Part shown: one piece after another, positions 7,036 through 56,615 of the stretch
How positions within the stretch are numbered: the first letter of the stretch is position 1
Layout: every line of letters starts with the position of its first letter
NCBI GenBank assembly: GCA_002713215.1
Contig: PAVO01000042.1
Span: forward strand, 62,001 to 126,000
DNA: 64,000 bases
Source of the DNA: Crocinitomicaceae bacterium
GTDB taxonomy: Bacteria > Bacteroidota > Bacteroidia > Flavobacteriales_G > Salibacteraceae
Direction of reading: 5' to 3'
Notes under the pieces: generated by a model
Seen by the model: the letters and a program-made list of their open reading frames with translations, nothing else
Databases searched by the model: none
Told to the model about the DNA's origin: nothing
Made by a program: the position numbers and the translations under genes

Positions 7036-7065
7036 GAGGGACTTTAAAATTAAAATTGTTTGAAT

Positions 7066-17640: not shown

Positions 17641-17783
17641 GTTTGCCGGCCTACGTAGATCACCGTAGATTTATAAGGAGTAAATCGTATTTTCTGGGTC
17701 ATACGAAACTGGCTCAGGGTTAATTAATTACCTTTATCTAACTTGCTTAAACTATAAGTATACGCCCTTAAAATTTGACGACT

Positions 17784-33290: not shown

Positions 33291-33380
33291 ACTTCCTCTC
33301 TAATTTATTGTCGAATTTATTTGAGCTAAAAGATTCCTTGATTATGTAATTGATAGGTTTTTATAAGTACTGTTAGAAGT

Positions 33381-33388
33381 TATATTTG
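33381..33388 (+). promoter_or_regulatory. -7 element upstream of the third giant gene
   Basis: TATATTTG is an exact TAnnTTTG match 17 bases before the ATG at 33406. It overlaps a 14-base interrupted palindrome (ATTTGC, two bases, GCAAAT). The -33 region is only a T-run near 33358, so strength is uncertain. No terminator is visible between the preceding stop and this site. Confidence 0.5.
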
Positions 33389-33405
33389 CACGCAAATCAA
33401 TAACC

Positions 33406-36400: not shown

Positions 36401-39400
36401 GGGCCGTATCGGTAAATAGCGGAACTCCAGTGTTTCAGACTCCTTTTCATTTTCAAGATTCCCTTACTTCCTATACCGACACTACTGTTATACTAGGCAA
36501 CTATAACTTCCTATCCAACAATTCTTACCAGATTATTGCCATGATAGACAGTGTCAATGGAGTGAAGGACTCTTCGTCCATAAATGATTCAGCAAGAACC
36601 AAGGTATTAAAACCAAAGCTGTCAGGTACATACACGGTTGGTGGGACAAGTCCTGATTTTGCCAATTTAGATACTGCATTAAAGACACTTATAAAGGTTG
36701 GTATTTGTGGGCCGGTTATTCTCAACTTAAGACAGGGTGCTTACAAGGCATACCACAAGTTGGCTTATGTAAGGGGGACAAATTCCGTTAATACAATAAC
36801 CATTCAAACGGAACCAAGTTATTCTGGACAAGCTGAAATTTCAAATGCTGGGATTGCTGTTAAGTTGACCGGTGAAAATTACATACTTAAAAACCTAAAG
36901 ATCAAAACCACCAAAGGGGGGCACGTAATTGACATAACGGGCAGCCCAAAGAATAACACCATAAGAGGGAATACAATTCAAGGGTACGATACCAATTCAA
37001 CCTGGTCGTATTTTTCTGTGATTAAGTTAGACCTTGTAACTCTGGTTGATTCGAATTATTTGACAATCGATTCAAACATCGTTCTCAATGGTTCTTATGG
37101 CTTTGAGTTTTCGATTCGGGGTGCAGCTAATGATCACTTTATAGTTATAAAAGATAATGTATTTAAGGATTTTTATTCAAGAGGAGTTCATTGTACAGGA
37201 GCAACAAACCTTAAAATTATCAGGAATAATTTCTACGTAAAGAAAGTTTCAAAAAGCGTTAGAGTTATTTTCTTAAGTGCTATCACGCATCCTATTATTT
37301 CCAGAAATAAAATCTACTACGATCATGGTACTGCAATCCATTGCAATGGAAACATGGGGAGTGTGCTTTACCCTCCGTTAATCTCCAATAACTTTATCAT
37401 TCAGAAAGACAGAAATGCAACGTTGAGTACCGGTATTTATCTTGGTGGCGGTCGCCACGAGTTGGTTTTAAATAATACGGTTAGCATTGTTCAGGACGCG
37501 GGATATTCTATTTGTTTTTATGGTAATCGAGGGTTTCTTAACACCGAGATAAAAAACAATATTTTTTATTCTCGAAGCGGTTTGGTTTATTACTTAGATA
37601 GATGGGGATCCACTGTCAATAGTTTCGATCATAACAATTTATACACTGGTGGATCCAATGCGGTTAGTTTTAATTCGGTTTTATACAAGGATGTAGGTTC
37701 CTGGAAAAAATTTGCGAAGGTTCTGGATCAGAATTCCTTGGATGTTAATCCATTTTTTACAAATGATACAATCCCGCGACCCAATAATTCAGCATTAAAT
37801 GGTAAGGCGGATACAACTCGTTGGGTAGTAATAGATATCGATGGTGAACCAAGAGATACCCTTAACCCAGATATTGGTGCCGATGAGTTTTTACTTAAAA
37901 AGAATGATGTTGGAATTTCCGATTTATCCAAAAGTATTTGTGCAAGTTCGGGAGTTGTAAAAGTTAAATTGGTCAACCATGGAAGTATCAAGGCAACTGG
38001 CATTAAAGTCAACTGGGGATTTTCAGTTAACGGTGGAGCGTATGCCTATCAAACACCATATTGGTTTAATGATACTTTAGGCCCCGGGGCCGACACGCTG
38101 CTAGCTATAGGTACTTATGCGTTTTCAGTAAAAGACAGTTACGCAGGAATTGCATTTACCGATTCGGTAAATGGAGTGTTAGATTCGAATAATTTAAATG
38201 ATACTGTAAGGGTAGATACTCTTATGCAAAACATGTCTGGAATCTATAATGTGGATTCTGCCGGCGGTGCCCATTGGAAAACCATTGATTCAGCCGTTTC
38301 AGCTCTATTGCAATATGGTGTTTGCGGCCCGGTTGTTATTTACGTTAAATCGGGAACCTATAATGAACGGTCGGTAATCAAGAGAATTAAAGGAAGTTCA
38401 AAAATTAATACCATTACTTTTCTTGGGGATACGAGTACTCGAAGGCCCAAATGGACCAATGGCATTGCACCTATTACGTTTGCTGCTACGCAATTCGTCA
38501 CGGTAAAAAACTTCAACCTTGTAACTACTGGCCGGTCAACGATTCTTTTTGAGGGAAGCAGTTCTAATATCATAATTGACAGTAATAGAATTGTTGGGAA
38601 ACCTACTTTTTCAAGTTCATTGTTTGAGTCAACCATTTTATCCAACCCTGCTTCTTACCGCAGATCGGATACCAATATTCATATTATAAATAACGAAATT
38701 TTGTATGGAGCAAACGGGATTTACCTCCCTCAGAACCTGAGCACAGGCTCAAACCACAGAATTGAGAACAACAAAATAACCAGTTTTCAACATGTTGGCA
38801 TTTACGCAGCCAACATGGATAGTTTGCTGGTGTCAGGAAATGTGATTAGTACAGATCTTTCAGTAGTGGGGCCATTTGGAATTAAAATGACCGGAAGCCT
38901 TAGGGGAACAGTGATTAAGAAGAATGATGTTCAATTTAGTAAAGGAGGAACTGGAATACAGGTAGAAAAAAGCCTTTCTACCGGAAACAATACCATTATC
39001 GAAAACAACTTTATTTCAATAAGACATACTTCAGGCTCTGTTGGCATAGCTGTACAAGGAGATTCATTGCACGTTGTCCATAATTCTATTCATCTTTATG
39101 GAAAATCTATTGTTGGAGTTGGTTTTCGACAATATGGATATGGTACCAGTACTACCTTGTTCAAAAACAATATTGTGTCCAATACAGGAGGTGGGTTAGC
39201 CATTGATGTTAACGTACTATCGGATTATTATGGCGATTACAATAATTATTACACTCCCAACAGTTCCAGATTTGGGCGTCAGGGTACAGCTTACAAAACA
39301 AGTTTTGCTTCATGGAAATCCAGTTCTCAGAAAGACTCCAATTCCATCAGCGTAAACCCCTTCTTTACTGATTCGGTAAACCTTCATGTATACAGCAAAG

Positions 39401-41673
39401 TGATAAAAGCTAAAGGAACACCATTAGGATTGAGATACGATATCGATAATGACTTGAGAAATCTTAGCGCACCGGATATGGGAGCCGATGAATTTACAGC
39501 CTACGCGGTTGAAGGAGGATTGTTAAGAAAGGACATAAACGTATGTCGTGGTAAATACCCGGTTTATGCCACTCTAATAAATCATGGAGACTCAAGCATT
39601 ACTGGTGCAAGGGTTGCCTGGCAACTATCGGTTAATGGTGGCGCCTATGTTCAGCAAACTACAGTTTCATGGACCGGGAATTTATCTTCTGCCAAAGACA
39701 CATTGCTGTTTTTAGATTCCATAGGGGTTTCTAAGTCGGCTTCTTATAAAATTAGAGCCTATTTGATTGACGTTAACGGAAAACTGGATAACAATGCAGT
39801 TAATGACACTTCCATTTTTAATGTGAGAATTGATAGTTCCAAAAGCGCCAAGGTGAACCTGCCATCGGCTTTGTGTTATAATACATTACCTTTTTCAGTC
39901 AATGCTACCCCCATCGGAGGTGTTTTAATTGGTAATGGCATTACCAGCGGAGTATTAAATCCAAGAAGTGTAGGAGTAGGTAGCGATAGTTTAATGTATA
40001 TAGCTATTGATACCAATTCGTGCCGCGATTCAGTTGTGGTTCATTACTCAGTTGATTCCGTTCCAAAAGTTGGATTAAGCATTCCTGACAGTATGTGCTT
40101 AAATGGAGGGCGCTTGACCTTGAATGGAGGTTCTCCTTCCGGTGGATTATACTATGGAAAAAATGTCACGTCAAATTCCTATTTGCCGTTTACTTCGGGG
40201 TTGGATACCATACATTATTCCTATACAGATGGAAATGGATGTTCAGACAGTACTATGGAAACGATTCGGGTTGATCCAATTCCAACCGTTAGTTTAACCG
40301 TTCCGGACAGCGTATGCTTGAATATTTCTTCAATCTTGCTTCAAACCGGTAGACCTGTTGGTGGTGTATATTCGGGTAATGGAGTCATTTTGGGGACTTA
40401 TAAGCCTATAAATACTGGTGTAGATACCATTCGATATACGGCAACCAACAAGTTCAATTGTTCGGCCACGGCGTTTAAGTTGATTACTGTAAATCCGGTA
40501 ACCAAGGCAAGTTTTTTCGCCATTGGCAATTTGTGTCTTAATGCGTCGCCTTTACTGCTTAATTATGGAAGTCCACTTGGAGGGGTATATGCCGGAAAAG
40601 GGGTGAATGGTAATAATTACAAGCCCATTCAAATTGGGACGGATACCTTACAATACATTTACACCAATGGTTTTTCTTGCTCCGATACGGCCTACCAAAC
40701 CGTAACTGTGGATTCTATTCCAGTAGTTTCTATTCTCAGTTGGGCCGACCAATGCCTTAACTCACCGCCGTTTGCCTTATTTGGAGGGCACCCGGCTGGA
40801 GGAAGTTATTTCGGTAGTGGAATTTCCGGCAACCAATACGATCCCTCAACGGCAACGGTAGGATTAAATACCATTGCCTATCATTTTCTAGATGCCAGAG
40901 GCTGTTCCGATACGGCTGAGACCAAGTTTGTTATACATGCCTTGCCAACGGTAAGTATGGACTCAGCGGTATACGCTTGCGAATTGGATAGCACGCTTTT
41001 ACTTTCAAGTGGGAGACCGCTTAATGGCCAGTATTCAGGATCGTTTATTAACGGGAATACTTTCGACCCAAGGTTGGCTGGTTTGGGTAGGCATGAGGTT
41101 TATTATGAGTTTACTGATGCCAATACTTGTACGAATGTGGATACCGGTAAAGTAGTTGTTGAAGCTAATCCTGTATTTAACCTGGGGAATGATAAGGCTT
41201 TTTGTGGGAGTAATGTATTGGAACTGAATCCAGGCATAAATAACATGACCTACCTGTGGAACACCGGGGACACTTCTAAAACCATTAAGCTTAACCAGGG
41301 TGGTGCGTATTCAATTGTAGTTACCGATACGAGCACACATAAAAACTGTTCCCAATCCGATACCATCAACGTATCCTACAAAGCCATTTGTGTTGGAATT
41401 GATGAAAACCTTCTTTCCAGGGCTTCCATTCAGTATTATCCAAACCCCAATAACGGAAGGTTCTTCCTAAAACTGGACTCCGAAGAGGAAGGTGAGGTAA
41501 AACTTATTATTCGAAACATGCAGGGGCAAATTGTTTCTACTCAATCCTGGGAAAAAACCAGCAAGGAATTGCTACAGGAAATTGATTTGAGTGATCAATC
41601 GTCAGGAGTATATTATTTAAATTTAAGCACTGAAAAAGGCAGGGCTGTCCATCGAATTACTTTGAATCGATAA
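33406..41673 (+). CDS. Giant T9SS-exported protein with four beta-helix modules and six Ig-like repeats
   Basis: A 2755-residue protein with a clear signal peptide (M-K-K-L, cleavage near S-F-A-Q) running straight into the first beta-helix, as in the preceding giant. Helix modules open near 33469, 35063, 36626 and 38238; modules 2 to 4 are preceded by CARDB-like domains, and each closes with a D-I-D or D-L-Y motif and G-A-(D/V)-E-F. After a last CARDB-like domain come six Ig-like repeats with two cysteines each (about residues 2150-2592), the constant domain (Y-L-W-N-T-G-D-T-S) and a type A sorting domain (Y-Y-P-N-P-N-N-G, ending R-I-T-L-N-R). The last 240 bases are strikingly similar in DNA to the end of the preceding giant. 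A surface filament or adhesin role is inference. Confidence 0.9.
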   Translation: MKKLLLLVCIIFSLSSFAQLSGTYTIGGTSPNYSTIDSAVTDLEIKGVSGHVTFKIRQGTYKQQVSLDSIPGSDTNKTVTFLPDSNKKSGVILEYTGSSTTTNYVFRVNGVKYVTFKHLHFIKKGSNFGRCLLFEGANSNILLDSNEFTGIKKDYGLNSMIIYDAGGSTNQSHNVVISHNTFNFGAGAVMVVGESTSKKQNGWEIRGNKVQNYEGISFVFTKCHKIIISNNEVATLSNSLNGNGISGEYSSEIKIYDNHIVVSTKNSSTNGIILRSCSGVSANRSDIYNNMIAFPDTAKSKAIYGIRLILCNYTSVMFNSLSATSGAGYLFHSTTVPTSVYFWNNIAAHYGTGYAMYFGSNGYFYSYNCLHATTNRICNRSYNSTNIVANPKFTSSTDLHTNATAVNGKAYYVKRIKYDIDGEVRDTAKPDIGADEFSSSPSNDAGITGITNSIACTGSNDVFVKLKNYGGDTLTAVRLNWSVAVNGGTPVVQSFGTFSGSLLSGKDTTLKIGSYVASKNDTLTILAWTSGPNNKADTDSTNDSTSKIIRVAMSGIYTIGGASPDYTSLTTALAELKSKGVCGHVTFNLRPGTYQYYFLIDNAPGVSPTSTFTLQSDPAYSGRAILNVPNNLALNWIHDVVIQNLEIRGKIQFHGDCYRVKIRNNKIVGKLSNSKNLIDGTIQNTTYFATRLTDIAIDSNHIMRGSGAVYFQGKYNNSISRIKVTNNQIDSMGHYGIALKTLDSSLIESNTIIDTNWSGSSAIYLNLATAKISRNKLILNSDSSFDAIFCYGNSSRDTILLENNFIHLDSAANGIHLFGSEYSRLTYNTVIMHSVIGKALLSYQNKHLYLRNNNFAKFNAGYLIEFNVSIGVDSDHNNFYYGKAPFMRNVIDLNRWRTSKNDSNSHHVNPYFYQPYSPRPAHALLNGNAIPIPGVKYDLYRVKRDSLNPDIGAVEFATMYNDAAAKSVDTSSICPGISSVRFSFSNVGSNKIYSAKIKWAVSVNSGTPVFQTPFHFQDSLTSYTDTTVILGNYNFLSNNSYQIIAMIDSVNGVKDSSSINDSARTKVLKPKLSGTYTVGGTSPDFANLDTALKTLIKVGICGPVILNLRQGAYKAYHKLAYVRGTNSVNTITIQTEPSYSGQAEISNAGIAVKLTGENYILKNLKIKTTKGGHVIDITGSPKNNTIRGNTIQGYDTNSTWSYFSVIKLDLVTLVDSNYLTIDSNIVLNGSYGFEFSIRGAANDHFIVIKDNVFKDFYSRGVHCTGATNLKIIRNNFYVKKVSKSVRVIFLSAITHPIISRNKIYYDHGTAIHCNGNMGSVLYPPLISNNFIIQKDRNATLSTGIYLGGGRHELVLNNTVSIVQDAGYSICFYGNRGFLNTEIKNNIFYSRSGLVYYLDRWGSTVNSFDHNNLYTGGSNAVSFNSVLYKDVGSWKKFAKVLDQNSLDVNPFFTNDTIPRPNNSALNGKADTTRWVVIDIDGEPRDTLNPDIGADEFLLKKNDVGISDLSKSICASSGVVKVKLVNHGSIKATGIKVNWGFSVNGGAYAYQTPYWFNDTLGPGADTLLAIGTYAFSVKDSYAGIAFTDSVNGVLDSNNLNDTVRVDTLMQNMSGIYNVDSAGGAHWKTIDSAVSALLQYGVCGPVVIYVKSGTYNERSVIKRIKGSSKINTITFLGDTSTRRPKWTNGIAPITFAATQFVTVKNFNLVTTGRSTILFEGSSSNIIIDSNRIVGKPTFSSSLFESTILSNPASYRRSDTNIHIINNEILYGANGIYLPQNLSTGSNHRIENNKITSFQHVGIYAANMDSLLVSGNVISTDLSVVGPFGIKMTGSLRGTVIKKNDVQFSKGGTGIQVEKSLSTGNNTIIENNFISIRHTSGSVGIAVQGDSLHVVHNSIHLYGKSIVGVGFRQYGYGTSTTLFKNNIVSNTGGGLAIDVNVLSDYYGDYNNYYTPNSSRFGRQGTAYKTSFASWKSSSQKDSNSISVNPFFTDSVNLHVYSKVIKAKGTPLGLRYDIDNDLRNLSAPDMGADEFTAYAVEGGLLRKDINVCRGKYPVYATLINHGDSSITGARVAWQLSVNGGAYVQQTTVSWTGNLSSAKDTLLFLDSIGVSKSASYKIRAYLIDVNGKLDNNAVNDTSIFNVRIDSSKSAKVNLPSALCYNTLPFSVNATPIGGVLIGNGITSGVLNPRSVGVGSDSLMYIAIDTNSCRDSVVVHYSVDSVPKVGLSIPDSMCLNGGRLTLNGGSPSGGLYYGKNVTSNSYLPFTSGLDTIHYSYTDGNGCSDSTMETIRVDPIPTVSLTVPDSVCLNISSILLQTGRPVGGVYSGNGVILGTYKPINTGVDTIRYTATNKFNCSATAFKLITVNPVTKASFFAIGNLCLNASPLLLNYGSPLGGVYAGKGVNGNNYKPIQIGTDTLQYIYTNGFSCSDTAYQTVTVDSIPVVSILSWADQCLNSPPFALFGGHPAGGSYFGSGISGNQYDPSTATVGLNTIAYHFLDARGCSDTAETKFVIHALPTVSMDSAVYACELDSTLLLSSGRPLNGQYSGSFINGNTFDPRLAGLGRHEVYYEFTDANTCTNVDTGKVVVEANPVFNLGNDKAFCGSNVLELNPGINNMTYLWNTGDTSKTIKLNQGGAYSIVVTDTSTHKNCSQSDTINVSYKAICVGIDENLLSRASIQYYPNPNNGRFFLKLDSEEEGEVKLIIRNMQGQIVSTQSWEKTSKELLQEIDLSDQSSGVYYLNLSTEKGRAVHRITLNR
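33466..39500 (+). repeat. Four tandem beta-helix modules
   Basis: Opening motifs recur at intervals of about 1594, 1563 and 1612 bases, the same unit as in the two preceding giants. Confidence 0.83.
41436..41613 (+). repeat. Second copy of the near-identical sorting-domain segment
   Basis: Matches 33053-33230. It encodes the core of the type A sorting domain from the Y-P-N-P motif to the G-V-Y motif. Confidence 0.8.
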
Positions 41674-42657: not shown

Positions 42658-43248
42658 TCACCTTTTTCGGTTCAATACGTAATTTGAAATCAAATAAGAA
42701 ATCACACCTATTGTTATGCCAGCTCCCAAGTCAAGAAATACATGCCTTCGAGTTTGAATGATTGCATAAAACATGAGCAGTGTAATACTGAGTATTATAA
42801 TGCTTCGAAGGTTACTTCCTCGGTGTATTAGCCCTAAAGTACAAATGGTTATTAGCGAACCGTGTAAGGAAGGAAAACAATTGTTTCGTGTATCGTTTAG
42901 CGCCACGAAGTTTAATACTTCGGCGCTAAAACTATCAAGTTGAATTTCCGGATAAATCATACTACTCGGAAAGAAAACAAATACAACACCGCTAATGGAG
43001 GCGCTCAGAAGAAAAGCATAGGACATTGGACGCAACGTTGATTTGTCTGAGACGAAAAAGGCATATGGAACAAACAAATAAAACAGAAGGTATAGCCAAA
43101 TACCTATATAGTTGAACGGGATAAGACCATCTATTCTAGTTTCTGGGACGATCCAAACTGGCTCAGACACATAACTTGTTACATAATAAATGGCACCTGT
43201 TGGTATCCAACCTGCCAATAACAAAATCAACCTTCTATTGAATGACAC
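42658..43248 (-). CDS. PAP2-family membrane phosphatase-like protein
   Basis: A 196-residue integral membrane protein with about six hydrophobic segments. It carries the PAP2 signatures C-F-P-S-L-H-G (residues 124-130, catalytic His129) and R-R-H-V-F-L-D (167-173, with His169 and Asp173), spaced as in the inositol-phosphorylceramide-synthase-like (PAP2_3) branch. Such proteins hydrolyse or exchange phospho-headgroups of lipids at the membrane face. The start is GTG; no ATG lies upstream before a stop. It is divergent from the acyl-ligase operon with 73 bases between starts, so a shared regulatory region and a link to that pathway's lipid are possible (inference). The first, classic K-x6-R-P motif is not clear. 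Confidence 0.8.
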   Translation of the reverse strand: MSFNRRLILLLAGWIPTGAIYYVTSYVSEPVWIVPETRIDGLIPFNYIGIWLYLLFYLFVPYAFFVSDKSTLRPMSYAFLLSASISGVVFVFFPSSMIYPEIQLDSFSAEVLNFVALNDTRNNCFPSLHGSLITICTLGLIHRGSNLRSIIILSITLLMFYAIIQTRRHVFLDLGAGITIGVISYLISNYVLNRKR

Positions 43249-43321
43249 AAATGAATTTTAGAGGTATTTTAGATTCTAGAAAAGTATAACCAAATAGGAT
43301 ATCGTAAAGTAACAAATTCAA

Positions 43322-46300
43322 ATGCCATCTATTTTATCAGAAGTTACAAAACGAACCAAAGACTACCCCAATAAAACCATGTACTCTTTCCTTGATAGCC
43401 AAGGAAACATAACCGAATCATATACTTATCAATCATTTGAGGATCGAACGAAGGCCATCGCATCCTACCTTCATACTCACTATTCCCTAAAAAAGGGAGA
43501 TCGGGTTCTCTTGGCGTACCCTCCAGGTCTTGAAATGATAACAGCCTTTTTTGCATGTGCGAGATTGGGAATAATTCCGGTTCCGGTTTATTCACCTTCG
43601 GTACACGGTATGAATGCTTCAGTTCTTAAAATGAACTTTATTGCTCAAGATTGTGAGGCTAACGCGGTTTTTACTGACAGTAGTTTCTTCTGGTCTTTCA
43701 AAATCAATTTGAAAAAAAACAAGAATCGCCTCTCAGAATTATTCTGGATAAATACCACAGAGATTAGCCATTCCAATATGGCTCCACCCCCTGAGGTTCA
43801 TAATGATATTTTGTTTTTACAATACACATCAGGCTCAACGAGTAATCCCAAAGGAGTTGTTGTGACCCACCATAATATTCTGCAAAATTGCAAGAACGTC
43901 GCGGACCATATGCCTATTGGAGTGTCTTGGTTGCCACAATATCACGATATGGGGCTAATTGGATACTACCTCTTCTTTGCTATAAAAGGTGGAACCACCT
44001 ATGGTTTTTCACCCTCCGATTTTATTAAACGGCCCGCTCTGTGGCTAGAAACCATTTCGAAGTACCATGCAACAGCCTCCTCAGCGCCAAACTTTGCTTT
44101 CGAATATTGTCTACTTCCGGGAAAAATAAGCGATGACGTTTTAAAAAAAATAGATTTGAGTTCGCTGAAGTTTTTAATGACTGCAGCAGAGGCCATAAAA
44201 CCGAGTACCTACCAAAATTTTAAGGAAAAATTTAGCCGTTACGGTTTAAAACCCAAGTCCTTTTTCGCTGCATATGGTCTGGCAGAGTTTACGCTGGCGG
44301 TGACCAATTATGGTAGAACATCGTTTTGTTTTAACTCAGAACTATTGCTACATAATAAAGCTCAGGCACTTTCCGAAGAGGACGACAAAAGCAAGTCAAC
44401 CTCAATAATGAGTTGCGGTAAACCCTTGGCAAATACTTGCCTTAAAATTGTTGACCCTCACCATGAAAATAATGAATTAGAAAGTGGTAGAGTTGGCGAA
44501 ATTTGGCTACAAGGGGAAAGTAAATGTGATGGTTATTGGAACAAAAAAAAATTGAGCCAACAAGTCTTTGAGGCAGAAATCACAGGAACAAATCAGAATA
44601 ATAAATGGTTAAGGACGGGCGATCTAGGTTTTATTTATCACGAAGAGTTATTTGTTTGTGGACGGTTAAAAGACTTAATAATTATTCGAGGAAATAACTA
44701 CTATCCACATGACATTGAGCACCTTGTTGAAAGTGACCCATTAATTAGAGTGGGTTGCGTCGCTGCTTTCTCTGTTAGTAAATCGGGAAATGAATCTGTG
44801 GTTGTTGTAGCTGGAATAAAAAACCGAAGGAAGATCCCAGATGCTACAACAATTCGTGATCGGATAAGTCACCTGCTGGGTATCAGCCTTTCTGAAATCG
44901 TTTTTGTGCTTGCGAAGGATGTATCCAAAACAAGCTCTGGAAAAATTCAACGGTATAGAAACAAAGAAAGGCTTGTCGAAGGTACGTTACCCGTTATTGA
45001 ACACGTGCGCTTTAGCGAAAAAGAAGTAAAACGTGGAGCATTAACGGAAAGAAATACCAGTACTTATCCTCCTTTCACAAAAGACTACTGGGAACTGTTA
45101 CGATACTACAAACTAAGTGGTAAGGAGAATACTACATTGACTAACTCAGGCCTGGATTCTATTCAGTTAGCGGAATTTAGCCACGATCTTGAAATTTACC
45201 TGAGAAACAAAGGGTTTAATGATTTATCGCATGACGTAGATATAAAACTACTTCAGAAAATGGTGGTTTCCGATTTATTCGAAATTCTCGGTGTTTTTGA
45301 AACGAAATCGAAACTTGCACGATTCAAGTTCAAAAAGGCATTTATGGATCTCCGTTCGGAATATCAAAAGGCAGAACTGAGCTTAATGGCAAGCGATGTT
45401 CTTTTGAGCCATTCAAAAGAAATGCTCAGTGAATCAGAACTATCTGGCTCAATGCAAAACTCAATATTATTAACTGGTGGAACCGGTTTTTTTGGCCCAT
45501 TTCTTATTAAGTCATTGCTGGAACAGACCGCCGAAAGCATTTATGTTCTGGTTCGAGCAAATTCTAAAGAACAAGCAGTAAATCGATTAAGAAAATCGTT
45601 TAACACCTTGCATATTGAAAGCCAAAAACTCTCAGACTCCTTTGAAAAAAGAGTAATCCCAGTTTGCGGAGATTTGAGCAAAGAAAACTTGGGCTTAAGT
45701 GAGAAAGATTGGAACTTTTTAAGCGTTAATGTAAAGACCATTTATCACAACGGGGCATCGGTCAATTATCTCAAAGACTACCATACACTTCGAGGCGCCA
45801 ATGTATTGGGAACCAAAGAAGTAATTGAACTTGCACTTTGTAATCGAGCGAAAACCGTAAACCACATTTCCACCACGTTTATTTTCGGTTGGTCCATTAA
45901 GGATACTCTTTTTGAAACTGACTCCAATAAGGATATGAAATTTCTGGATTTCGGTTACAGCCAAAGCAAATGGGCATCGGATCAGATGGTACTAAAAGCT
46001 ATGGAAAATGGACTCGAAGCACGAGTTTTTAGGCCAGCCTTAATTTCTCCTTCTGCCCATGGAGAGGGCTATAATTTTGATATTTCAATTCGATTGCTGG
46101 CATTCATGGTAAAACATGGAATTGGAACCACAGCCAAAAATCAGGTCAGTTTTACACCAGCAGATATAGCAGCAAATAACATTGTGGCCATAGCTGGAAT
46201 TGAATCGTCAGTAAATCAAACGTTTCATGTCACCCGGGATGAATACTCCAGCATGCAAGACGTTACCGGTATTTTAAGCAAGCTTGTTGGAATGGATTTT

Positions 46301-46555
46301 ACCGATTATAAACTGAAAGAATTTGTTCCTGAAGTAGTTAGTAGATGCACCAAAAAAGACCCGTTATTCCCCTTGCTCAATTTCTTGGTAAAATCCGTTG
46401 ATAATATTGGTAACATGGAGTTTAAAAGATACGACAACAGTAATTATAAAAAGTTTAGAGATCTATCTACCTTCGGAAAACCGGATTTACCATTGGAAGA
46501 CGTGGTGCAAGGGATATATAAGTTTATGAATTGCAATAAATTAATAGAAGCATAA
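43322..46555 (+). CDS. Fatty acyl-AMP ligase / acyl carrier / thioester reductase fusion
   Basis: A 1077-residue three-domain enzyme. Residues 1 to about 575 form a fatty acyl-AMP ligase (FAAL): Y-T-S-G-S-T and P-K-G-V-V-V-T-H (168-182), W-L-P-Q-Y-H-D-M-G-L-I-G, and the C-terminal K-T-S-S-G-K-I-Q-R. About 580-660 is an acyl carrier protein with phosphopantetheine site Ser613 in G-L-D-S-I-Q. About 700-1070 is an NAD(P)H-dependent thioester reductase (SDR type) with T-G-G-T-G-F-F-G (718-725) and Y-S-Q-S-K (Tyr879, Lys883). The family logic is activation of a fatty acid as acyl-AMP, loading on the carrier, and reductive release as aldehyde or alcohol. It is followed after 1 base by a P450 and then a desaturase, suggesting that acyl modification and reduction are coupled. 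No condensing enzyme is present. Confidence 0.92.
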   Translation: MPSILSEVTKRTKDYPNKTMYSFLDSQGNITESYTYQSFEDRTKAIASYLHTHYSLKKGDRVLLAYPPGLEMITAFFACARLGIIPVPVYSPSVHGMNASVLKMNFIAQDCEANAVFTDSSFFWSFKINLKKNKNRLSELFWINTTEISHSNMAPPPEVHNDILFLQYTSGSTSNPKGVVVTHHNILQNCKNVADHMPIGVSWLPQYHDMGLIGYYLFFAIKGGTTYGFSPSDFIKRPALWLETISKYHATASSAPNFAFEYCLLPGKISDDVLKKIDLSSLKFLMTAAEAIKPSTYQNFKEKFSRYGLKPKSFFAAYGLAEFTLAVTNYGRTSFCFNSELLLHNKAQALSEEDDKSKSTSIMSCGKPLANTCLKIVDPHHENNELESGRVGEIWLQGESKCDGYWNKKKLSQQVFEAEITGTNQNNKWLRTGDLGFIYHEELFVCGRLKDLIIIRGNNYYPHDIEHLVESDPLIRVGCVAAFSVSKSGNESVVVVAGIKNRRKIPDATTIRDRISHLLGISLSEIVFVLAKDVSKTSSGKIQRYRNKERLVEGTLPVIEHVRFSEKEVKRGALTERNTSTYPPFTKDYWELLRYYKLSGKENTTLTNSGLDSIQLAEFSHDLEIYLRNKGFNDLSHDVDIKLLQKMVVSDLFEILGVFETKSKLARFKFKKAFMDLRSEYQKAELSLMASDVLLSHSKEMLSESELSGSMQNSILLTGGTGFFGPFLIKSLLEQTAESIYVLVRANSKEQAVNRLRKSFNTLHIESQKLSDSFEKRVIPVCGDLSKENLGLSEKDWNFLSVNVKTIYHNGASVNYLKDYHTLRGANVLGTKEVIELALCNRAKTVNHISTTFIFGWSIKDTLFETDSNKDMKFLDFGYSQSKWASDQMVLKAMENGLEARVFRPALISPSAHGEGYNFDISIRLLAFMVKHGIGTTAKNQVSFTPADIAANNIVAIAGIESSVNQTFHVTRDEYSSMQDVTGILSKLVGMDFTDYKLKEFVPEVVSRCTKKDPLFPLLNFLVKSVDNIGNMEFKRYDNSNYKKFRDLSTFGKPDLPLEDVVQGIYKFMNCNKLIEA

Positions 46556-46556
46556 G

Positions 46557-47915
46557 TTGGGAAACCGGAATCAACATACGGTCTCAAGCATAGAATCTTT
46601 ACTCGATACCACCGAAATGGTAAAGAACCCAGTTCAGGTATTCGAAAAGTACCGTCAAAAGCATGGGGCTACCTTTAAATTCAATTTTGGAGGATTTAGA
46701 AAAACGGTCGTGACTGCCGACCCAGATTTTTTGAAATACATATTAAAGGATAACAATTCGAATTACCATAAATCTCACATTCAAGTAAAACGATTTGTCG
46801 AATTTCAAGGAAAAGGGTTAACCAACAGCCATGGTGATTATTGGCTACGACAACGGAAATTACTGAGTTTAGGATTTACTCGTTCAAGGCTTTCTGAAAT
46901 GTTGCCCATTCAGATTAAGGTGCTCAATGATTTTATGGACGACTTTGATAAGGAGGCCACCAAGGGCCCTGTGGATATTCACCAGCAAATGGTAAACTTT
47001 ACGCTACGGTCGGTTGGCAAATCGCTTTTTGGGAGTCAAATGAGTAATCAGGAGCTTGAACAGTTTGCCAGCACCATTGCCAGTATTCAAAGCTTTATTG
47101 TGAGGAAAGTGGTTCAACCTTATCTTATGCCCTGGTACGCCATCAGTGGACAAAATAAGAAGTACCAGGAAATGCGAATAAAGGGGGATCAAATCGTGTT
47201 GAATTACATAGAAAAGCGGCGAACTGAAAACAATCAGGAACGAGATATACTTCGGCTCATTTTAACTACTCCGTATAAGGATACGGGAGAATTTATGTCG
47301 GATGAGACCGTAAAAGTAGAAATATTACAACTGCTTGTAGCTGGCAATGAAACGTCGACCACTGCTGCAACCTGGGCATTTTATCTCTTAGCAAAACACC
47401 CAGAGTACATCGCAAAAATGAGAAATGAAATTGAAGCTGTTTTTGCCGGAGATGAAGTCAATTATTCAAAACTGCACGATCTCAAGTATACCATTGCCGT
47501 GTTGAACGAGACCATGAGAATGAGACCTCCGTTTTGGATGATTGACCGTGAAGCTTTGCAAGATGACGAATACAATGGAATTAAAATTCCAGCAGGCACC
47601 ACTGTAGTCCCCTATATTTTTGGAGTACATCATAACGACCGGGTATGGGAAGATCCTGAAAAGTTTAACCCGAACAGATTCACAGATGGAAACGACAAAA
47701 AGGTACACCCATTTGCTTTTATTCCTTTTGGCGGAGGGCCCAGAGTGTGTATAGGCCAAAATATGGCCATCATGCAAATACTGCTGGTTATGAGTCGTAT
47801 TATTCGCAACTATGATCTGGAGTTAAGTGAAGATAAAATGGTTGGAATGCATGCCATGATGCTGTTAAAACCAGATGGACCTATTCATATAAACTTTAAA
47901 CGGATAAACTTTTAG
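46557..47915 (+). CDS. Cytochrome P450
   Basis: A 452-residue soluble P450. Visible motifs are the I-helix A-G-N-E-T-S (262-267), the E-T-M-R (ExxR) region, and the heme loop F-G-G-G-P-R-V-C-I-G with axial Cys398. The presumed start is TTG, one base after the upstream stop; an in-frame TAG at 46545 excludes a start further upstream, and the next ATG (46617) would remove part of the N-terminal P450 fold. Sequence style (R-x-x-F-x-G-x-G-L-T near 80-90, P-F-G-G-G-P-R) is that of fatty-acid hydroxylase-like bacterial P450s. Placed between an acyl-activating fusion and a desaturase, it probably hydroxylates or epoxidises the same acyl chain, free or on the carrier (inference). Redox partners are not in the window. 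Confidence 0.92.
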   Translation: MGNRNQHTVSSIESLLDTTEMVKNPVQVFEKYRQKHGATFKFNFGGFRKTVVTADPDFLKYILKDNNSNYHKSHIQVKRFVEFQGKGLTNSHGDYWLRQRKLLSLGFTRSRLSEMLPIQIKVLNDFMDDFDKEATKGPVDIHQQMVNFTLRSVGKSLFGSQMSNQELEQFASTIASIQSFIVRKVVQPYLMPWYAISGQNKKYQEMRIKGDQIVLNYIEKRRTENNQERDILRLILTTPYKDTGEFMSDETVKVEILQLLVAGNETSTTAATWAFYLLAKHPEYIAKMRNEIEAVFAGDEVNYSKLHDLKYTIAVLNETMRMRPPFWMIDREALQDDEYNGIKIPAGTTVVPYIFGVHHNDRVWEDPEKFNPNRFTDGNDKKVHPFAFIPFGGGPRVCIGQNMAIMQILLVMSRIIRNYDLELSEDKMVGMHAMMLLKPDGPIHINFKRINF

Positions 47916-47925
47916 TTAACCTCCT

Positions 47926-49008
47926 ATGAAAGGTCCAAAGTATTCAAATAGCATTAACGAAGACCTGTCGAGAACTCTAAATAAAAGGGTGAATCAATAC
48001 TTCAAAGAAAATGGATTAAGTAAAGAAGCTGATACGTCCATGGCGGTTAAAACGCTGCTCCTTTTTGGTGCGTATTTTTCTATTTATCTCATCATACTAT
48101 CCAACGTAATTACCAATATCCCCGTGCTATTTGTCCTTTGGGCTATCCTGGGCCTTCTGCAAGCTTTTATTGGAATGTCTATTATGCATGATACCGTGCA
48201 TGGTGCTTACACTAAAAACAAGATGGTTCGATTTGTTTTGCAGGTTCCAATTGTTGCTATTGGTGTTGAGCCTAAAATTTGGCATATAGAACATAACGTT
48301 TTGCATCATAATTATCCTAATGTCGGAGGTATAGATCAAGATATAAACCCACGGGTATTGTTTAGGTTCACCAAACATCAACCTCGGCAGTGGTTTCATC
48401 GCTTTCAGCATATATATGCTACTTTTTTATATGGCTTGCTGGTGATTGAATGGCTTACCATTAAAGACCTGCGCAGCGCAGTAAAGTATTTTCAGCAGGG
48501 TTTTATCCAAACTCGAATGGCTGCCGTACAGTTGGCTCTTACCATAGTATTTAAAAAACTGATATTTTACCTTTTCTTTTTGGCAATCCCCCTGATGATA
48601 TTGCCCTTTGACTATGCTGTTAGTGTCGGAATGTTTCTAACCATGCTGGTGGTTGCTGGAATTACGTTGACACTCGTTTTTCAACTGGCACATGTAGTAC
48701 CAGATTGCAAAACAGAAAAAAACGCCGAAAACCTTCAAGATCAGAACTGGCATGCCCACCAGTTACAAACCACATCAAATTTTGCGCATAATAACAAGCT
48801 CCTTTCGTATTTAATTGGTGGGCTTAACTATCAAATTGAGCATCATTTGTTTCCAGGAATTTGTCACATTCACTATCCTCAAATTTCTAAAATTGTAAAA
48901 CAAACGGCTATGGAATTTTCCCTGCCCTATCATTATGAAGAAACAGTTTCAGATGCCATCAGGTCCCATTATCGGTTGTTGAGAGATTTAGGTAGGGAGG
49001 AAGGTTAG
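47926..49008 (+). CDS. Membrane fatty acid desaturase
   Basis: A 360-residue integral membrane di-iron enzyme. The three histidine boxes are H-D-T-V-H (88-92), H-N-V-L-H-H (123-128) and Q-I-E-H-H (303-307). The Q replacing the first His of the third box is typical of front-end or acyl-lipid desaturases of the linoleoyl-CoA desaturase type; there is no fused cytochrome b5 domain. Four or more hydrophobic helices surround the boxes. It starts 10 bases after the P450 stop and is the last gene of the operon. Inserting a double bond (or a triple bond, as known for related acetylenases) in the chain handled by the acyl ligase is the likely role. The position of the bond and the real substrate (lipid, CoA or carrier-bound) cannot be inferred. 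Confidence 0.9.
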   Translation: MKGPKYSNSINEDLSRTLNKRVNQYFKENGLSKEADTSMAVKTLLLFGAYFSIYLIILSNVITNIPVLFVLWAILGLLQAFIGMSIMHDTVHGAYTKNKMVRFVLQVPIVAIGVEPKIWHIEHNVLHHNYPNVGGIDQDINPRVLFRFTKHQPRQWFHRFQHIYATFLYGLLVIEWLTIKDLRSAVKYFQQGFIQTRMAAVQLALTIVFKKLIFYLFFLAIPLMILPFDYAVSVGMFLTMLVVAGITLTLVFQLAHVVPDCKTEKNAENLQDQNWHAHQLQTTSNFAHNNKLLSYLIGGLNYQIEHHLFPGICHIHYPQISKIVKQTAMEFSLPYHYEETVSDAIRSHYRLLRDLGREEG

Positions 49009-50191: not shown

Positions 50192-51163
50192 TTAGGTTAA
50201 CCTTTCCAAAACCGAATTCATCAAGTTCAGGTTATAACTGTTTACCTTTTGATGCGAAGGCATCCAACCTAATAAGAAACGGGTAAAATCGGTACAGGCA
50301 ATGGGGTAGAGGGTCCTCCATTCCTGTTCAAGTGCTGTAAAATCAATCTGGTACTCAGAAGCTTCCAAAGCCGTTTGTAATTCTGCAAAATAGAAATCCA
50401 ATAACGGTGTTTCGTAGCGTTTGCACTCCGAACTAGAGAGGCAACTTCCTAAGAAGTAGGCAACGTCTTTCATTCCGCTGCCACCTCCAACGTATTGAAA
50501 ATCTACCGCAGCCACTTGTTCTCCATTTTCCGAAAAGCAAAAGTTAGCGAGTTTAGCATCTCCATGAATCAGGGTTTGGTATTCGCATTGGTTCAATAGA
50601 TCATCAATTGCATGCGCCTTCGATTTTAGTTCGTGGTGTTCCATTTTTTCGAATTCATCAGGCCGGGTAGCCAAATGCCAGTAAGTACCCACTTCCCACA
50701 AGCCAGTTGGTTGTTGGTTGAGGAAAGTAGCATGAAAATGAGCCAGCCATTTCAAACAAACTTTAACCCCTGAAAGGTCAATTTGCTGTTGAATTAAAGG
50801 AAAGTTGGTTTTTAAATCTTCCAGAATAATCCATTGCTGGTTGCCTTCGGAAAAGGAACCCAAAAAATGAGGGATTCTACAGGAATTGGAACATTGTTGA
50901 CTCCAGTGCTTGTACCAATGTGTTTCTACCTGATACGATTTTACTTTTCGATTGTGTGAGGTATTCGTATTCCAACCTCTGGGATGCTGGTCAGCCGCTT
51001 CCAGCGAGATGCATTTAACCACTATGGTCTTACGCGATGAATTGACTAACTGATATCGGGAAATCTTTCCGTAACCACTCCACAACGATTGAATGACTTC
51101 CATCTCTTTGCAATCAGTAGATTCCGTAATATTTAATAAGTAATTCTTGAACGCCGAATGCAT
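50192..51163 (-). CDS. Small-molecule kinase-like protein (aminoglycoside phosphotransferase / EcKinase fold)
   Basis: A 323-residue cytoplasmic protein with the catalytic signature H-G-D-A-K-L-A-N (200-207) and a following D-F-Q (221-223) in place of the usual D-F-G or D-x-D metal-binding motif. L-E-D-L (114-117) is the hinge of the choline kinase/ecdysteroid kinase-like group. These enzymes transfer phosphate to hydroxyls of small molecules; the substrate is not predictable here. It is convergent with the DUF808 gene (33 bases between stops) and has no partner gene on its own strand, since rnpB lies upstream. Confidence 0.8.
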   Translation of the reverse strand: MHSAFKNYLLNITESTDCKEMEVIQSLWSGYGKISRYQLVNSSRKTIVVKCISLEAADQHPRGWNTNTSHNRKVKSYQVETHWYKHWSQQCSNSCRIPHFLGSFSEGNQQWIILEDLKTNFPLIQQQIDLSGVKVCLKWLAHFHATFLNQQPTGLWEVGTYWHLATRPDEFEKMEHHELKSKAHAIDDLLNQCEYQTLIHGDAKLANFCFSENGEQVAAVDFQYVGGGSGMKDVAYFLGSCLSSSECKRYETPLLDFYFAELQTALEASEYQIDFTALEQEWRTLYPIACTDFTRFLLGWMPSHQKVNSYNLNLMNSVLERLT

Positions 51164-52784: not shown

Positions 52785-55700
52785 TTACCTGGGAGGAATG
52801 CTTTGACCTGAAGAACCGGAGTTTATAAACTCCTCCATTTCTTCTTTGCTTTTTTCAACCTTAATGGGTTTGAACATGGATTTTGATTCGTCCTGTCCGT
52901 ACGCTTCAGGATGCAGGTAAAGTCCTCTGTCTTTTGAATCCTTCTCAACCACGGGATTAATTCTATTCTTATTGGAATAAGGGTCGTTTCGAATTCCGGT
53001 AACCTGCCAACTCACTTCCACGTTGGGTTTGTCTGTTTTAATTACAAATTGGTTCCCAGTTACCTTTTCCAGAATTATAGCCTGTGCAAACTGACCCACC
53101 ACAGTAAGCTGATATCGGAAGTCCATGTTTAGTGCCTCAAAATAATCAGGTAGTTGTACTGTTGCCAGCCCATCTCCATCAGTAACAACGTTTCCATTAT
53201 AGACATTCATCATATCGGGACTTTCCACAAATGAATGCACCAGCATTTTATTTTCAGGATCTTGAGGGTGGTCAATTTTAAATGTACCAGAGCCCTTGGA
53301 AATGCTTCCGGTAATTGATAGGTTCCCAGTAATGGCAACATTACCAATAAAATACCCAGCTAATCCAGTTGAGCCACTGATTCGGCTAACAATTCCATAA
53401 TTTACATCTCCTGTATCTTGTGCAGCCAAAGCCGAAACAGCAATATTAGTATCGGCGAATCCAGCATAATTGTGAGATCCATAATTAATTAAACCAGTAG
53501 AAGGGTTGCCAAAGGCATAAAAAGCACCGCCATAATTTCTGCTACCCGTTCCTCCTGTAAAACCAAGGATGCCAAAATTTTCATTAGAATGTCCAGATCC
53601 TTCTCCCATGACACCAGTATTATAAGTCTGTCCTGTGGCTGTACGGGCAACTACTACTTCACCGTGTACCCCTCTATTGTAGGTAGCATTGCTGGAGTTT
53701 GAGATCCCGGCAACCCCAGTACTATATGTACCACCTTCACTTAATCCATACACTCCGTAATGGAGTCCTGTTCCCGCAGTACCTGAAGTTCCTAATGCCT
53801 GACCCCGGACACCATATTGAATATTGTTGTTTGTTGCAGAAGAGCGACCAATTCCTTCAATTGCCAAATTAAAGCCACTTGAAGTTGAACTCGATACAAT
53901 ACCCTTACCACCAGTTGCATCTTCGATATACAATGGTCCGTTGGATGTGGTGGACCCAATGCTAATAGTCCCCAGCGTATAAGCCAAGTTGTTACCCGTT
54001 TTATCCCAGTAATTTATAAGTGAAATATCCGCAGAGTCGATAAGTTTGCTCTTTGACTGAGAGACGTAAATCTGCGTTCCGCTGAAGTATATACTGTCTA
54101 TGTATTCGTTGGTTGAGTCATTATCATTATTGGAAGCCGTAGCAGGAAGTACGGCAAACCCTCCATTGGTTAAGAAAATGGTGTCATTCGAAATACTCAG
54201 TACCTGAATTTCATTGGTAGTATCCAAATCAAAATCAGTAGAAGTATGGTTCGCTAAATTGGTGCTGTCTGCGGTAATTCTTGCATCCAATCCAGCCACA
54301 ATAGTGCTTTGGTCCAGGGGTGAAAGATCTACCGATTTTGCTCCACCTGCATCGGTTACCGATAATGTAGTTCCAATTAACTGGACCCTGTTATTCAACT
54401 CATTGGTAGAATCATTGTCGTTATTAGCTGTAGCTGCAGGAAGTACTGCAAACCCACCATTCGTTAAGTATATGGTATCGTTCGAGATGCTTATTACCTG
54501 AATTTCATTGGTCGTATCTAAATCAAAATCGGTAGCTGTATGGTTTGCCAAATTGGTACTGTCTGCTGTAATTCTGGCATCCAATCCTGCCACAATAGTA
54601 CTTTGATCCAATGCCGATAGGTCAGCAGATTTCGCTCCACCGGCATCTGTAACGGACAACATAGTCCCGGTTAATGAGACCGAAGTATTTAATTCATTGG
54701 TAGAATCATTATCATTGTTGGTTGCCACAGGAAGAACGGCAAACCCACCGTTGGTCAGGTAAATGGTATCGTTCGAGATGCTTATTACCTGAATTTCATT
54801 GGTAGTATCTAAATCAAAATCAGCAGTTATGTGGTTTGCTAAATTGGTGCTGTCTGCTGTAATTCTCGTATCTAGTCCTGCAACAGCTGCACTTTGATCC
54901 AATGCCGATAGGTCAGCAGATTTCGCTCCACCGGCATCAGTTACCGATAATGTAGTTCCGGTTAATGAGACCGAAGTATTTAATTCATTGGTAGAATCAT
55001 TATCATTATTGGTTGCCACGGGAAGAACGGCAAATCCACCGTTGGTAAGGTAAATGGTGTCGTTCGAGATGCTTAGTACCTGAATTTCATTGGTAGTATC
55101 TAAATCAAAATCGGTAGCCATATGGTTTGCTAAATTGGTACTATCGGCTGCAATTCTGGCATCTAATCCAGCAACATTAGCACTTTGATCCAATGCCGAT
55201 AGGTCAGTTGACTGAGCACCCCCTGCATCGGTAACTGACAGCAAAGTTCCGGTTAAAGAGACTGAAGTATTCAACTCATTGGTCGAGTCATTATCATTGT
55301 TAACCGTACCAGCCGGAAGAACCACAAATCCGCCATTGGTAAGGTAAATGGTATCGTTTGAAATACTTAATGCCTGGATTTCATTGGTAGTATCCAAATC
55401 AAAATCGGTAGCTGTATGGTTTGCCAAATTGGTACTGTCTGCTGCAATTCGGGCATCTAATCCAGCAACATTTGCACTTTGATCCAATGCCGAAAGGTCA
55501 GTTGACTGAGCACCCCCTGCATCGGTAACTGACAACAAGGTTCCGGTTAAAGAGACAGAAGTATTCAACTCATTGGTCGAGTCGTTATCATTGTTAACGG
55601 TGCCAGATGGAAGAACAACAAACCCGCCATTGGTAAGGTAGATCGTGTCATTTGAAATACTTAGCAATTGAATCTCGTTGGTAGCACTTAAATCCTGATC

Positions 55701-56615
55701 GGCAGTAGTGTGACTAGTTAATGCTGCGCTTTGATCCAAAGACGATAGATTCGCTGTTTTAGCTCCACCTGCATCGGTAACCGAAAGTGTGGTTCCGGTT
55801 AAAGAAACAGAAGTATTTAATTCGTTGGTTGAATCATTGTCGTTATTTATTCCACCGGAAGGAGGAAGTTTCACCATTCCACCATTGGTTAGAAAGATGG
55901 TATCATTCGATATACTCAATACCTGAATTTCATTGGTTGCGCTTAAATCCTGATCGGCCGTCGTATGACTTGTTAGCGCTGCGCTTTGATCCAAAGACGA
56001 CAGATTGGCCGATTTGGTACCCCCTGCATCTGTAACCTCCAAAGTAGTTCCTGTTAAAGAAACCGAGGTATTTAATTCATTCGTTGAATCATTGTCGTTA
56101 TTGACAGAGCCCGATGGTAAGACCACAAAACCACCATCGGTTAGAAACAAGGTATCCGCTGAAATACTTAGGCTTTGTAATTCATTGGTCGTATCAGCAT
56201 CTTCATCCCTTCCATAGCTGGCGGTGTTTGCATGCATTGCGTATGGTACTGAAACCAGTTGATTGGTGCTCAATCGCTCCCAATTAGTTCCACCATTCGG
56301 GTCCATTTCAACAATTACCACATGAACCTCCTGTCCCCAAAGAATGCTTGACATCGATCCACTGACCACCGTTCCTTCACCAATTTTAAAAGTGATAAGC
56401 CCAAAGCTATTGGTGGTGTCCAGGTGTGTTTCCTGGTATTTTAGAAAACCAACCGACGAAGTTTCGTGAATGCTAATTCGCAACTGTACCGTTTTATTGG
56501 TAAGTACCTGGCCTGAAGCGTCTCTAAGAACAGCCTGATAATTAAACTTCTCTGGTGCTTGTGCACGTGTGAGCGTGACAAAGAATAATATAAGTCCTAA
56601 TAATATGTATTTCAT
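52785..56615 (-). CDS. Secreted fibre-like protein with tandem repeats
   Basis: 1276 residues. A signal peptide (cleavage near T-R-A-Q) precedes a conserved N-terminal domain (about 20-150) with F-N-Y-Q-A-V-L-R-D and Q-L-V-S-V-P-Y-A-M-H-A, found at the start of many Bacteroidota fibre-like proteins. Residues about 171-830 are seven repeats: two of about 84 and five of about 98 residues, with N-N-D-N-D-S-T-N-E-L, T-D-A-G-G-A, L-D-Q-S and S-I-S-N-D-T-I-Y-L-T-N-G-G. Next is a glycine-rich G-V-x-G section (about 870-1060) and a C-terminal domain from G-S-G-T-F-K-I-D-H-P through S-W-Q-V-T-G-I-R. No T9SS sorting domain is present. Repetition suggests a trimeric or solenoid shaft as in phage tail fibres (inference). 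No phage genes are nearby. Confidence 0.85.
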   Translation of the reverse strand: MKYILLGLILFFVTLTRAQAPEKFNYQAVLRDASGQVLTNKTVQLRISIHETSSVGFLKYQETHLDTTNSFGLITFKIGEGTVVSGSMSSILWGQEVHVVIVEMDPNGGTNWERLSTNQLVSVPYAMHANTASYGRDEDADTTNELQSLSISADTLFLTDGGFVVLPSGSVNNDNDSTNELNTSVSLTGTTLEVTDAGGTKSANLSSLDQSAALTSHTTADQDLSATNEIQVLSISNDTIFLTNGGMVKLPPSGGINNDNDSTNELNTSVSLTGTTLSVTDAGGAKTANLSSLDQSAALTSHTTADQDLSATNEIQLLSISNDTIYLTNGGFVVLPSGTVNNDNDSTNELNTSVSLTGTLLSVTDAGGAQSTDLSALDQSANVAGLDARIAADSTNLANHTATDFDLDTTNEIQALSISNDTIYLTNGGFVVLPAGTVNNDNDSTNELNTSVSLTGTLLSVTDAGGAQSTDLSALDQSANVAGLDARIAADSTNLANHMATDFDLDTTNEIQVLSISNDTIYLTNGGFAVLPVATNNDNDSTNELNTSVSLTGTTLSVTDAGGAKSADLSALDQSAAVAGLDTRITADSTNLANHITADFDLDTTNEIQVISISNDTIYLTNGGFAVLPVATNNDNDSTNELNTSVSLTGTMLSVTDAGGAKSADLSALDQSTIVAGLDARITADSTNLANHTATDFDLDTTNEIQVISISNDTIYLTNGGFAVLPAATANNDNDSTNELNNRVQLIGTTLSVTDAGGAKSVDLSPLDQSTIVAGLDARITADSTNLANHTSTDFDLDTTNEIQVLSISNDTIFLTNGGFAVLPATASNNDNDSTNEYIDSIYFSGTQIYVSQSKSKLIDSADISLINYWDKTGNNLAYTLGTISIGSTTSNGPLYIEDATGGKGIVSSSTSSGFNLAIEGIGRSSATNNNIQYGVRGQALGTSGTAGTGLHYGVYGLSEGGTYSTGVAGISNSSNATYNRGVHGEVVVARTATGQTYNTGVMGEGSGHSNENFGILGFTGGTGSRNYGGAFYAFGNPSTGLINYGSHNYAGFADTNIAVSALAAQDTGDVNYGIVSRISGSTGLAGYFIGNVAITGNLSITGSISKGSGTFKIDHPQDPENKMLVHSFVESPDMMNVYNGNVVTDGDGLATVQLPDYFEALNMDFRYQLTVVGQFAQAIILEKVTGNQFVIKTDKPNVEVSWQVTGIRNDPYSNKNRINPVVEKDSKDRGLYLHPEAYGQDESKSMFKPIKVEKSKEEMEEFINSGSSGQSIPPR
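54110..56180 (-). repeat. Tandem array of 252-294 bp units inside the fibre gene
   Basis: A marker segment (complement of the T-N-E-I-Q codons) recurs at about 54204, 54498, 54789, 55080, 55374, 55668, 55923 and 56175, spaced 294, 291, 291, 294, 294, 255 and 252 bases. Neighbouring units are closely similar in DNA as well as in protein, so the array looks recently amplified. Confidence 0.88.

Follow-up and report, generated by a model that had tools for sequence, protein, structure and literature searches.

Carboxylic acid reductases (CARs) carry the domains A-PCP-R in one chain. For the tail of tambjamine YP1, a load-and-reduce logic has been demonstrated experimentally, as follows: the fatty acid is placed on the fused carrier of TamA (ANL-ACP), and a thioester reductase, in TamH, frees it as an aldehyde (PMC9594044). 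The Myxococcus ElbD and VEPE cluster likewise has, for lipid synthesis, a multidomain protein in which acyl-activating and carrier parts are joined to an acyl reductase (PMC9131029, PMC9426513). JamABC and polyyne cassettes hold a FAAL, a carrier and an FA_desaturase in one cluster, and some also a P450 (PMC8406139); JamB has been placed among the stearoyl-CoA desaturases of delta-9 type (PMC2593844). A FAAL, a thioester reductase, a carrier and a P450 are also found together in the Burkholderia glumae plasmid cluster NRPS-TR-FAAL-ACAD-ACAD-ACP-P450 (NZ_CP100289). That cluster, at 20023-38862 of the conjugative plasmid NZ_CP100289.1 (L066), has its FAAL and reductase separate and also contains an MFS transporter gene.

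The locus described here lies in a window (the whole stretch of DNA that was analysed) of 64,000 nucleotides from a Crocinitomicaceae bacterium and has the following features.

43322..46555, + strand: FAAL-carrier-thioester reductase fusion (FAAL-TR), 1077 aa; Pfam/NCBIfam models, FAAL structures, full-length homologues 48-69% identical.
43322..45001, + strand: FAAL domain, aa 1-560; best PDB matches 7r7f and 3kxw across the entire domain, motifs intact.
45158..45160, + strand: codon of Ser613, predicted phosphopantetheine site (GLDS) of the fused carrier; G[LIMF]DS in homologues spanning the site.
45464..46552, + strand: thioester reductase domain, aa 715-1077; GGTGFFG and YSQSK motifs, TIGR01746 above cut-off.
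46557..47915, + strand: cytochrome P450, 452 aa, TTG start; PF00067 E 1e-94, heme-Cys, ExxR, AGNETS.
47926..49008, + strand: membrane di-iron fatty acid desaturase, 360 aa; PF00487 E 2.5e-34, boxes HDTVH / HNVLHH / QIEHH.
42658..43248, - strand: PAP2_3-family membrane phosphatase or phosphotransferase, divergent; PAP2_3 match, same position in L025 and L018.
43249..43321, no strand: divergent intergenic region of 73 bp, likely a shared promoter region, from the sequence.

The FAAL-TR and P450 genes are separated by 1 bp (46555/46557) and the P450 and desaturase genes by 10 bp (47915/47926), while the PAP2 ORF begins 73 bp upstream of the FAAL-TR gene and diverges from it. The three ORFs, their order and these spacings are exactly those of the initial annotation when set against the ORF list and the sequence. 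A sigma-70-type promoter and terminator scan of the locus gave matches no better than chance. At 38.9%, the GC content of the cluster differs little from the window's 40.2% and so gives no compositional hint of recent transfer. Elsewhere in the window, three successive giant ORFs on the + strand (7060-17577, 17775-33290 and 33406-41673; 3505, 5171 and 2755 aa) probably encode secreted surface proteins of Bacteroidota; the first has GEVED, Ig_7 and a Por_Secre_tail type IX secretion sorting domain, and the third a tail that looks similar by eye. An EcKL (ecdysteroid-kinase-like) small-molecule kinase is encoded near the cluster at 50192-51163 (-) and is absent beside it in relatives, and a 1276-aa protein encoded at 52785-56615 (-) has many near-identical repeats ('NNDNDSTNELNTSVSLTGTTLSVTDAGGA...').

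The AMP-binding domain of the fusion protein is recognised at E 8e-64, with FAAL models and FAAL structures as top matches. The alignment of the N-terminal 560 residues with 7r7f and 3kxw continues across the insertion that follows YGLAE and is typical of FAALs, and the adenylation domain, insertion included, belongs to the FAAL type. The C-terminal part is matched by NAD_binding_4 and Thioester-redct models, TIGR01746 giving 227.7 bits against a cut-off of 213.35. Its YxxxK and GGTGFFG motifs, kept in the window and the homologues, place it with reductive rather than Dieckmann release, and GGTGFFG and YSQSK are invariant among the homologues. The carrier is the weakest domain call, with PF00550 at 15 bits and under the cut-off of 20.8; all homologues that span the region have a GxDS phosphopantetheine motif between FAAL and reductase, in the form G[LIMF]DS, and the window has GLDS, with Ser613. 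An Sfp-type PPTase gene stands directly upstream of FAAL-TR in 10 of the genomes with a sulfotransferase (see below), which supports a working carrier. Pfam searches of the proteins found neither a ketosynthase nor a condensation domain, in line with the initial annotation.

The P450 has intact AGNETS, ExxR and FGGGPRxCxG (heme-Cys) motifs, kept in 17 homologues. A redox partner is not encoded within the four-gene unit. Directly before the related cluster of a Planctomycetota record (L019:2729-4489(+)), a Rieske [2Fe-2S] domain is fused N-terminally to a second P450, an unusual arrangement that may serve electron supply. In the desaturase, the boxes HDTVH, HNVLHH and QIEHH are all intact (HX3H/HX3HH/QIEHH type), the third being a box known from front-end desaturases. 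A PDB search with the desaturase and PAP2 gave no useful match, but a control desaturase also matched nothing there, so that a missing stearoyl-CoA desaturase match is not evidence. The PAP2 protein contains PSLH and HxxxD, and thus the catalytic histidine and HxxxD of PAP2_3 members; its AlphaFold model (three sequences; mean pLDDT 47.6) is too poor to use. Loss of active-site residues, named at the outset as a result that would speak against the operon, was looked for, and the catalytic motifs are intact in all the cluster proteins.

FAAL-TR and P450 genes are adjacent in 17 genomes, all Bacteroidota apart from two records, whose titles give Planctomycetota and proteobacterium. Three Bacteroidota genomes from two families (those of the window, L025 and L018) have exactly the four-gene form with PAP2. 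In G000, the genome of the window (98.9% complete), there is a single such locus, and FAAL-TR was found in two of the 35 genomes of the same family (G000 and G320). The G320 locus, L025, repeats the window's four genes and their arrangement, with identities of 69% for FAAL-TR, 82% for the P450, 65% for the desaturase and 59% for PAP2, and its outer neighbours differ from the window's on both sides. For the four-gene form of L018, the corresponding values are 59%, 74%, 59% and 40%, the last for the portion of PAP2 present before the contig end. At E <=1e-120, FAAL-TR was present in two of 295 genomes from the class, namely that of the window and G018; among 345 genomes drawn from the phylum, the window's own was the one with FAAL-TR. 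The P450 was found in 11/240 genomes of family f20, among which G974 was taken to be the same genome as L018, since the gene positions are the same. A P450 of 35-36% identity in G692 sits in an unrelated neighbourhood. In the plasmid collection, no full-length relative of FAAL-TR was found; the best desaturase matches there were 38-40% identical 'acyl-CoA desaturase' genes on Bacteroidota plasmids, and the P450 matches were ~30% identical. Given this patchy distribution, loss or transfer must be common.

The adjacency of the core pair in 17 genomes, together with a four-gene form whose neighbours differ among three, is more than a chance neighbourhood. Judged by gene order and sequence, the four genes are a real, conserved biosynthetic unit, PAP2 included. 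The initial annotation had placed a PAP2-like gene divergently at 73 bases, which is correct, but as a mere neighbour, whereas three genomes keep it as part of the unit. Likewise, the proposed comparison of the three-gene order across Bacteroidota brings out conserved synteny, but the co-directional order only in the PAP2 form. Synteny showing the three genes to be separate in relatives, the other result named at the outset as speaking against the operon, was looked for too and did not emerge.

We also weighed the view that the true unit is FAAL-TR plus P450, with the desaturase and PAP2 serving ordinary membrane lipids. The desaturase is indeed separable from the core, being absent beside it in three genomes and split off from the P450 by an opposite-strand gene in ten. 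The tree of desaturases speaks differently: the 13 near-complete desaturases from the clusters group in a single clade (100/99) that leaves out ten rows of genomic paralogues from the same or related genomes. The cluster label needs one change on this tree, and none of 500 shuffles was equally good. A clade specific to the cluster argues for a dedicated desaturase with a fixed task there, and against a stray enzyme of membrane-lipid desaturation. As PAP2 and the desaturase also stay with the core in three genomes while the outer neighbours differ, we regard a two-gene unit as quite unlikely. The window's genome has five FA_desaturase genes, the cluster one included; two more of the QIEHH type adjoin each other away from the cluster (G000:C12:27433-29511; L001, L003).

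The initial annotation had likened the operon to terminal-alkyne biosynthesis of the JamABC type, in which the desaturase would act as an acetylenase on the carrier-bound chain, here to give an alkynyl aldehyde or alcohol. A FAAL, an FA_desaturase and an acyl carrier do occur together, the carrier as a fused domain, and there are two desaturases in relatives. However, the desaturase here is of the QIEHH type and by that motif would differ from JamB, which is described as of delta-9 type (PMC2593844). The carrier is inside the 1077-aa protein with no separate small ORF in the unit, so there is no stand-alone carrier like JamC, and the core pair lacks an adjacent desaturase in three genomes. The case against an alkyne product is strong but not final, and we consider such a product very unlikely.

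The 17 core-pair loci fall into two forms. A Sulfotransfer_3 gene is found in 13/17, PAP2_3 takes its place in the other 4/17 (the window, L025, L018 and L020), and the two together occur in 0/17. Where a desaturase is there, the sulfotransferase gene lies on the opposite strand between the P450 and the desaturase; in L022 and L019 it directly follows the P450. These two loci and L020 (the 'proteobacterium' record) lack an adjacent desaturase and encode an SDR and a flavin monooxygenase. An FMO-like protein was not found in G000, and neither G000 nor G320, each taken as a whole genome, contains a homologue of the L022 sulfotransferase. Nine of the sulfotransferase loci encode a second desaturase, which has the boxes HDCGH/HXXHH/HXXHH and weakly resembles a delta-5 DesA model; its best match among the G000 desaturases is only 23%, so that it has no close counterpart there. 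Eleven genomes with the sulfotransferase form also encode a conserved membrane protein ('MYSVRK...') that matches no Pfam or NCBIfam model and whose AlphaFold model (one sequence; mean pLDDT 46.6) was poor and left unused. This protein has ~250 aa (L049:14870-15619(-), L060:634-1536(+), L021:3008-3796(+), L022:1578-2354(-)) and invariant GPAxCVPA and YDSxYEM motifs.

In the FAAL-TR tree, the window, L025 and L018 form one clade (98/99), with lower support in the P450 tree (82/83). The sulfotransferase/PAP2 label needs two changes on both trees. With two events, this suggests, but does not prove, that the window form is a reduced derivative, in which PAP2 would stand where the sulfotransferase was.

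We consider it fairly probable that the locus is a lipid-tailoring cluster for carrier-bound activation, oxidation and desaturation, reductive release and polar capping, as follows. FAAL would adenylate a fatty acid, forming the acyl-AMP, and load it onto the fused carrier. Oxidation and desaturation of the chain, either carrier-bound or just before loading, would fall to the P450 and the front-end-type desaturase. The reductase domain, with its YxxxK, would then free the chain by NAD(P)H hydride transfer as an aldehyde or alcohol. A polar group would be added last, by a PAPS-type sulfotransferase in most relatives and by PAP2-family chemistry in the window lineage, the latter being phospho-head-group transfer or dephosphorylation. 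In this scheme we infer the substrate, the order of steps, the oxidation state at release, the capping step and the role of the product. The initial proposal of one functional unit for a fatty acid that is modified and reductively released is supported by the intact active sites and conserved synteny.

PAPS sulfotransferases place sulfate onto hydroxyls, and PAP2-superfamily enzymes remove phosphate or move a phospho-head group, as AUR1-type synthases do, AUR1 being a member of the PAP2_3 group. The Bacteroides AUR1 homologue BT_1522 is assigned to phosphoinositol dihydroceramide (PMC9246714). That sulfotransferase and PAP2 alternate suggests that the released alcohol may receive one of two different polar caps. 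The basis of this idea is the two events on the trees and the PAP2_3 membership (E 7e-7, 29.7 bits, with 27 as the cut-off). Most relatives have a sulfotransferase, mostly accompanied by a second desaturase and a PPTase, and this favours a polar lipid with a cap over the volatile entertained in the initial annotation; the product is probably a membrane or extracellular polar lipid.

Two further fates of the released chain have to be weighed against capping. The insect CYP4G enzymes remove the carbonyl carbon of a fatty aldehyde, and the P450 here might do the same to an aldehyde from the reductase, giving a hydrocarbon. An aldehyde-forming domain is always adjacent to the P450, which has remote similarity to CYP4B1, one among the many P450s matched; but a capping enzyme, whether sulfotransferase or PAP2, would be pointless for a hydrocarbon, and the P450 motif is that of an ordinary monooxygenase. 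Hydrocarbon formation is therefore highly improbable. Alternatively, the reductase might supply fatty alcohol or aldehyde for alkyl or alkenyl ether phospholipids or plasmalogens, with PAP2 acting on a lipid phosphate. ElbD likewise joins reductase, acyl-CoA synthetase and carrier (PMC9131029), and PAP2 is a family of lipid-phosphate enzymes. Against this, Pfam finds no acyltransferase domain in the multidomain protein, whose domain order also differs, the unit has no elbB/elbE-like or AGPS-like gene, and the sulfotransferase of the relatives does not fit. We think an ether-lipid role unlikely.

More tentatively, the capped-lipid reading can be extended to an undescribed bacterial family, in which an invariant FAAL-ACP-reductase and P450 would make an oxidised aldehyde or alcohol and the cap would be exchangeable: mostly sulfate, but in the window lineage a phosphorus-linked head group added by a PAP2_3 transferase. 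Though possible, this is doubtful as a whole. If the capped-lipid reading itself is right, four genes would give environmental Bacteroidota a compact way of making a derivative of a fatty alcohol or aldehyde that is polar, oxidised and unsaturated. The sulfotransferase and PAP2 forms would be a comparison set making the head group directly testable, the FAAL-carrier-reductase with its fixed P450 partner would be useful for biocatalysis, and the uncharacterised conserved membrane protein of the relatives would be linked to lipid synthesis.

We found no description of this gene combination in the open-licence literature searched, which agrees with the initial statement that no characterised cluster is known with exactly this composition. 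The locus shares the three-domain order within one chain with the CARs, but its adenylation domain is of the FAAL type and NF041592 gives 129.1 bits against a cut-off of 1300. In the tambjamine YP1 pathway, TamH joins its reductase to a transaminase and an amine results (PMC9594044), whereas here the reductase is in the FAAL-carrier chain and a P450, a di-iron desaturase and PAP2 are added. ElbD and the VEPE cluster have an N-terminal reductase, an acyltransferase domain, no P450, and a HAD-type phosphohydrolase rather than PAP2 (PMC9131029, PMC9426513). The JamABC cassettes have a separate carrier, a delta-9-type JamB and no reductase, and polyyne clusters add two desaturases, a thioesterase and a rubredoxin (PMC8406139); the unit has one desaturase and none of the others. 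The B. glumae cluster differs in its separate genes, its NRPS and its acyl-CoA dehydrogenases in place of the di-iron desaturase, at ~31% identity. The locus thus belongs to a rare, apparently undescribed family of lipid clusters outside the alkyne, polyyne, ElbD and CAR systems. Its load-oxidise-reduce logic is a known one, and the novelty would lie in the constant P450 and the capping gene.
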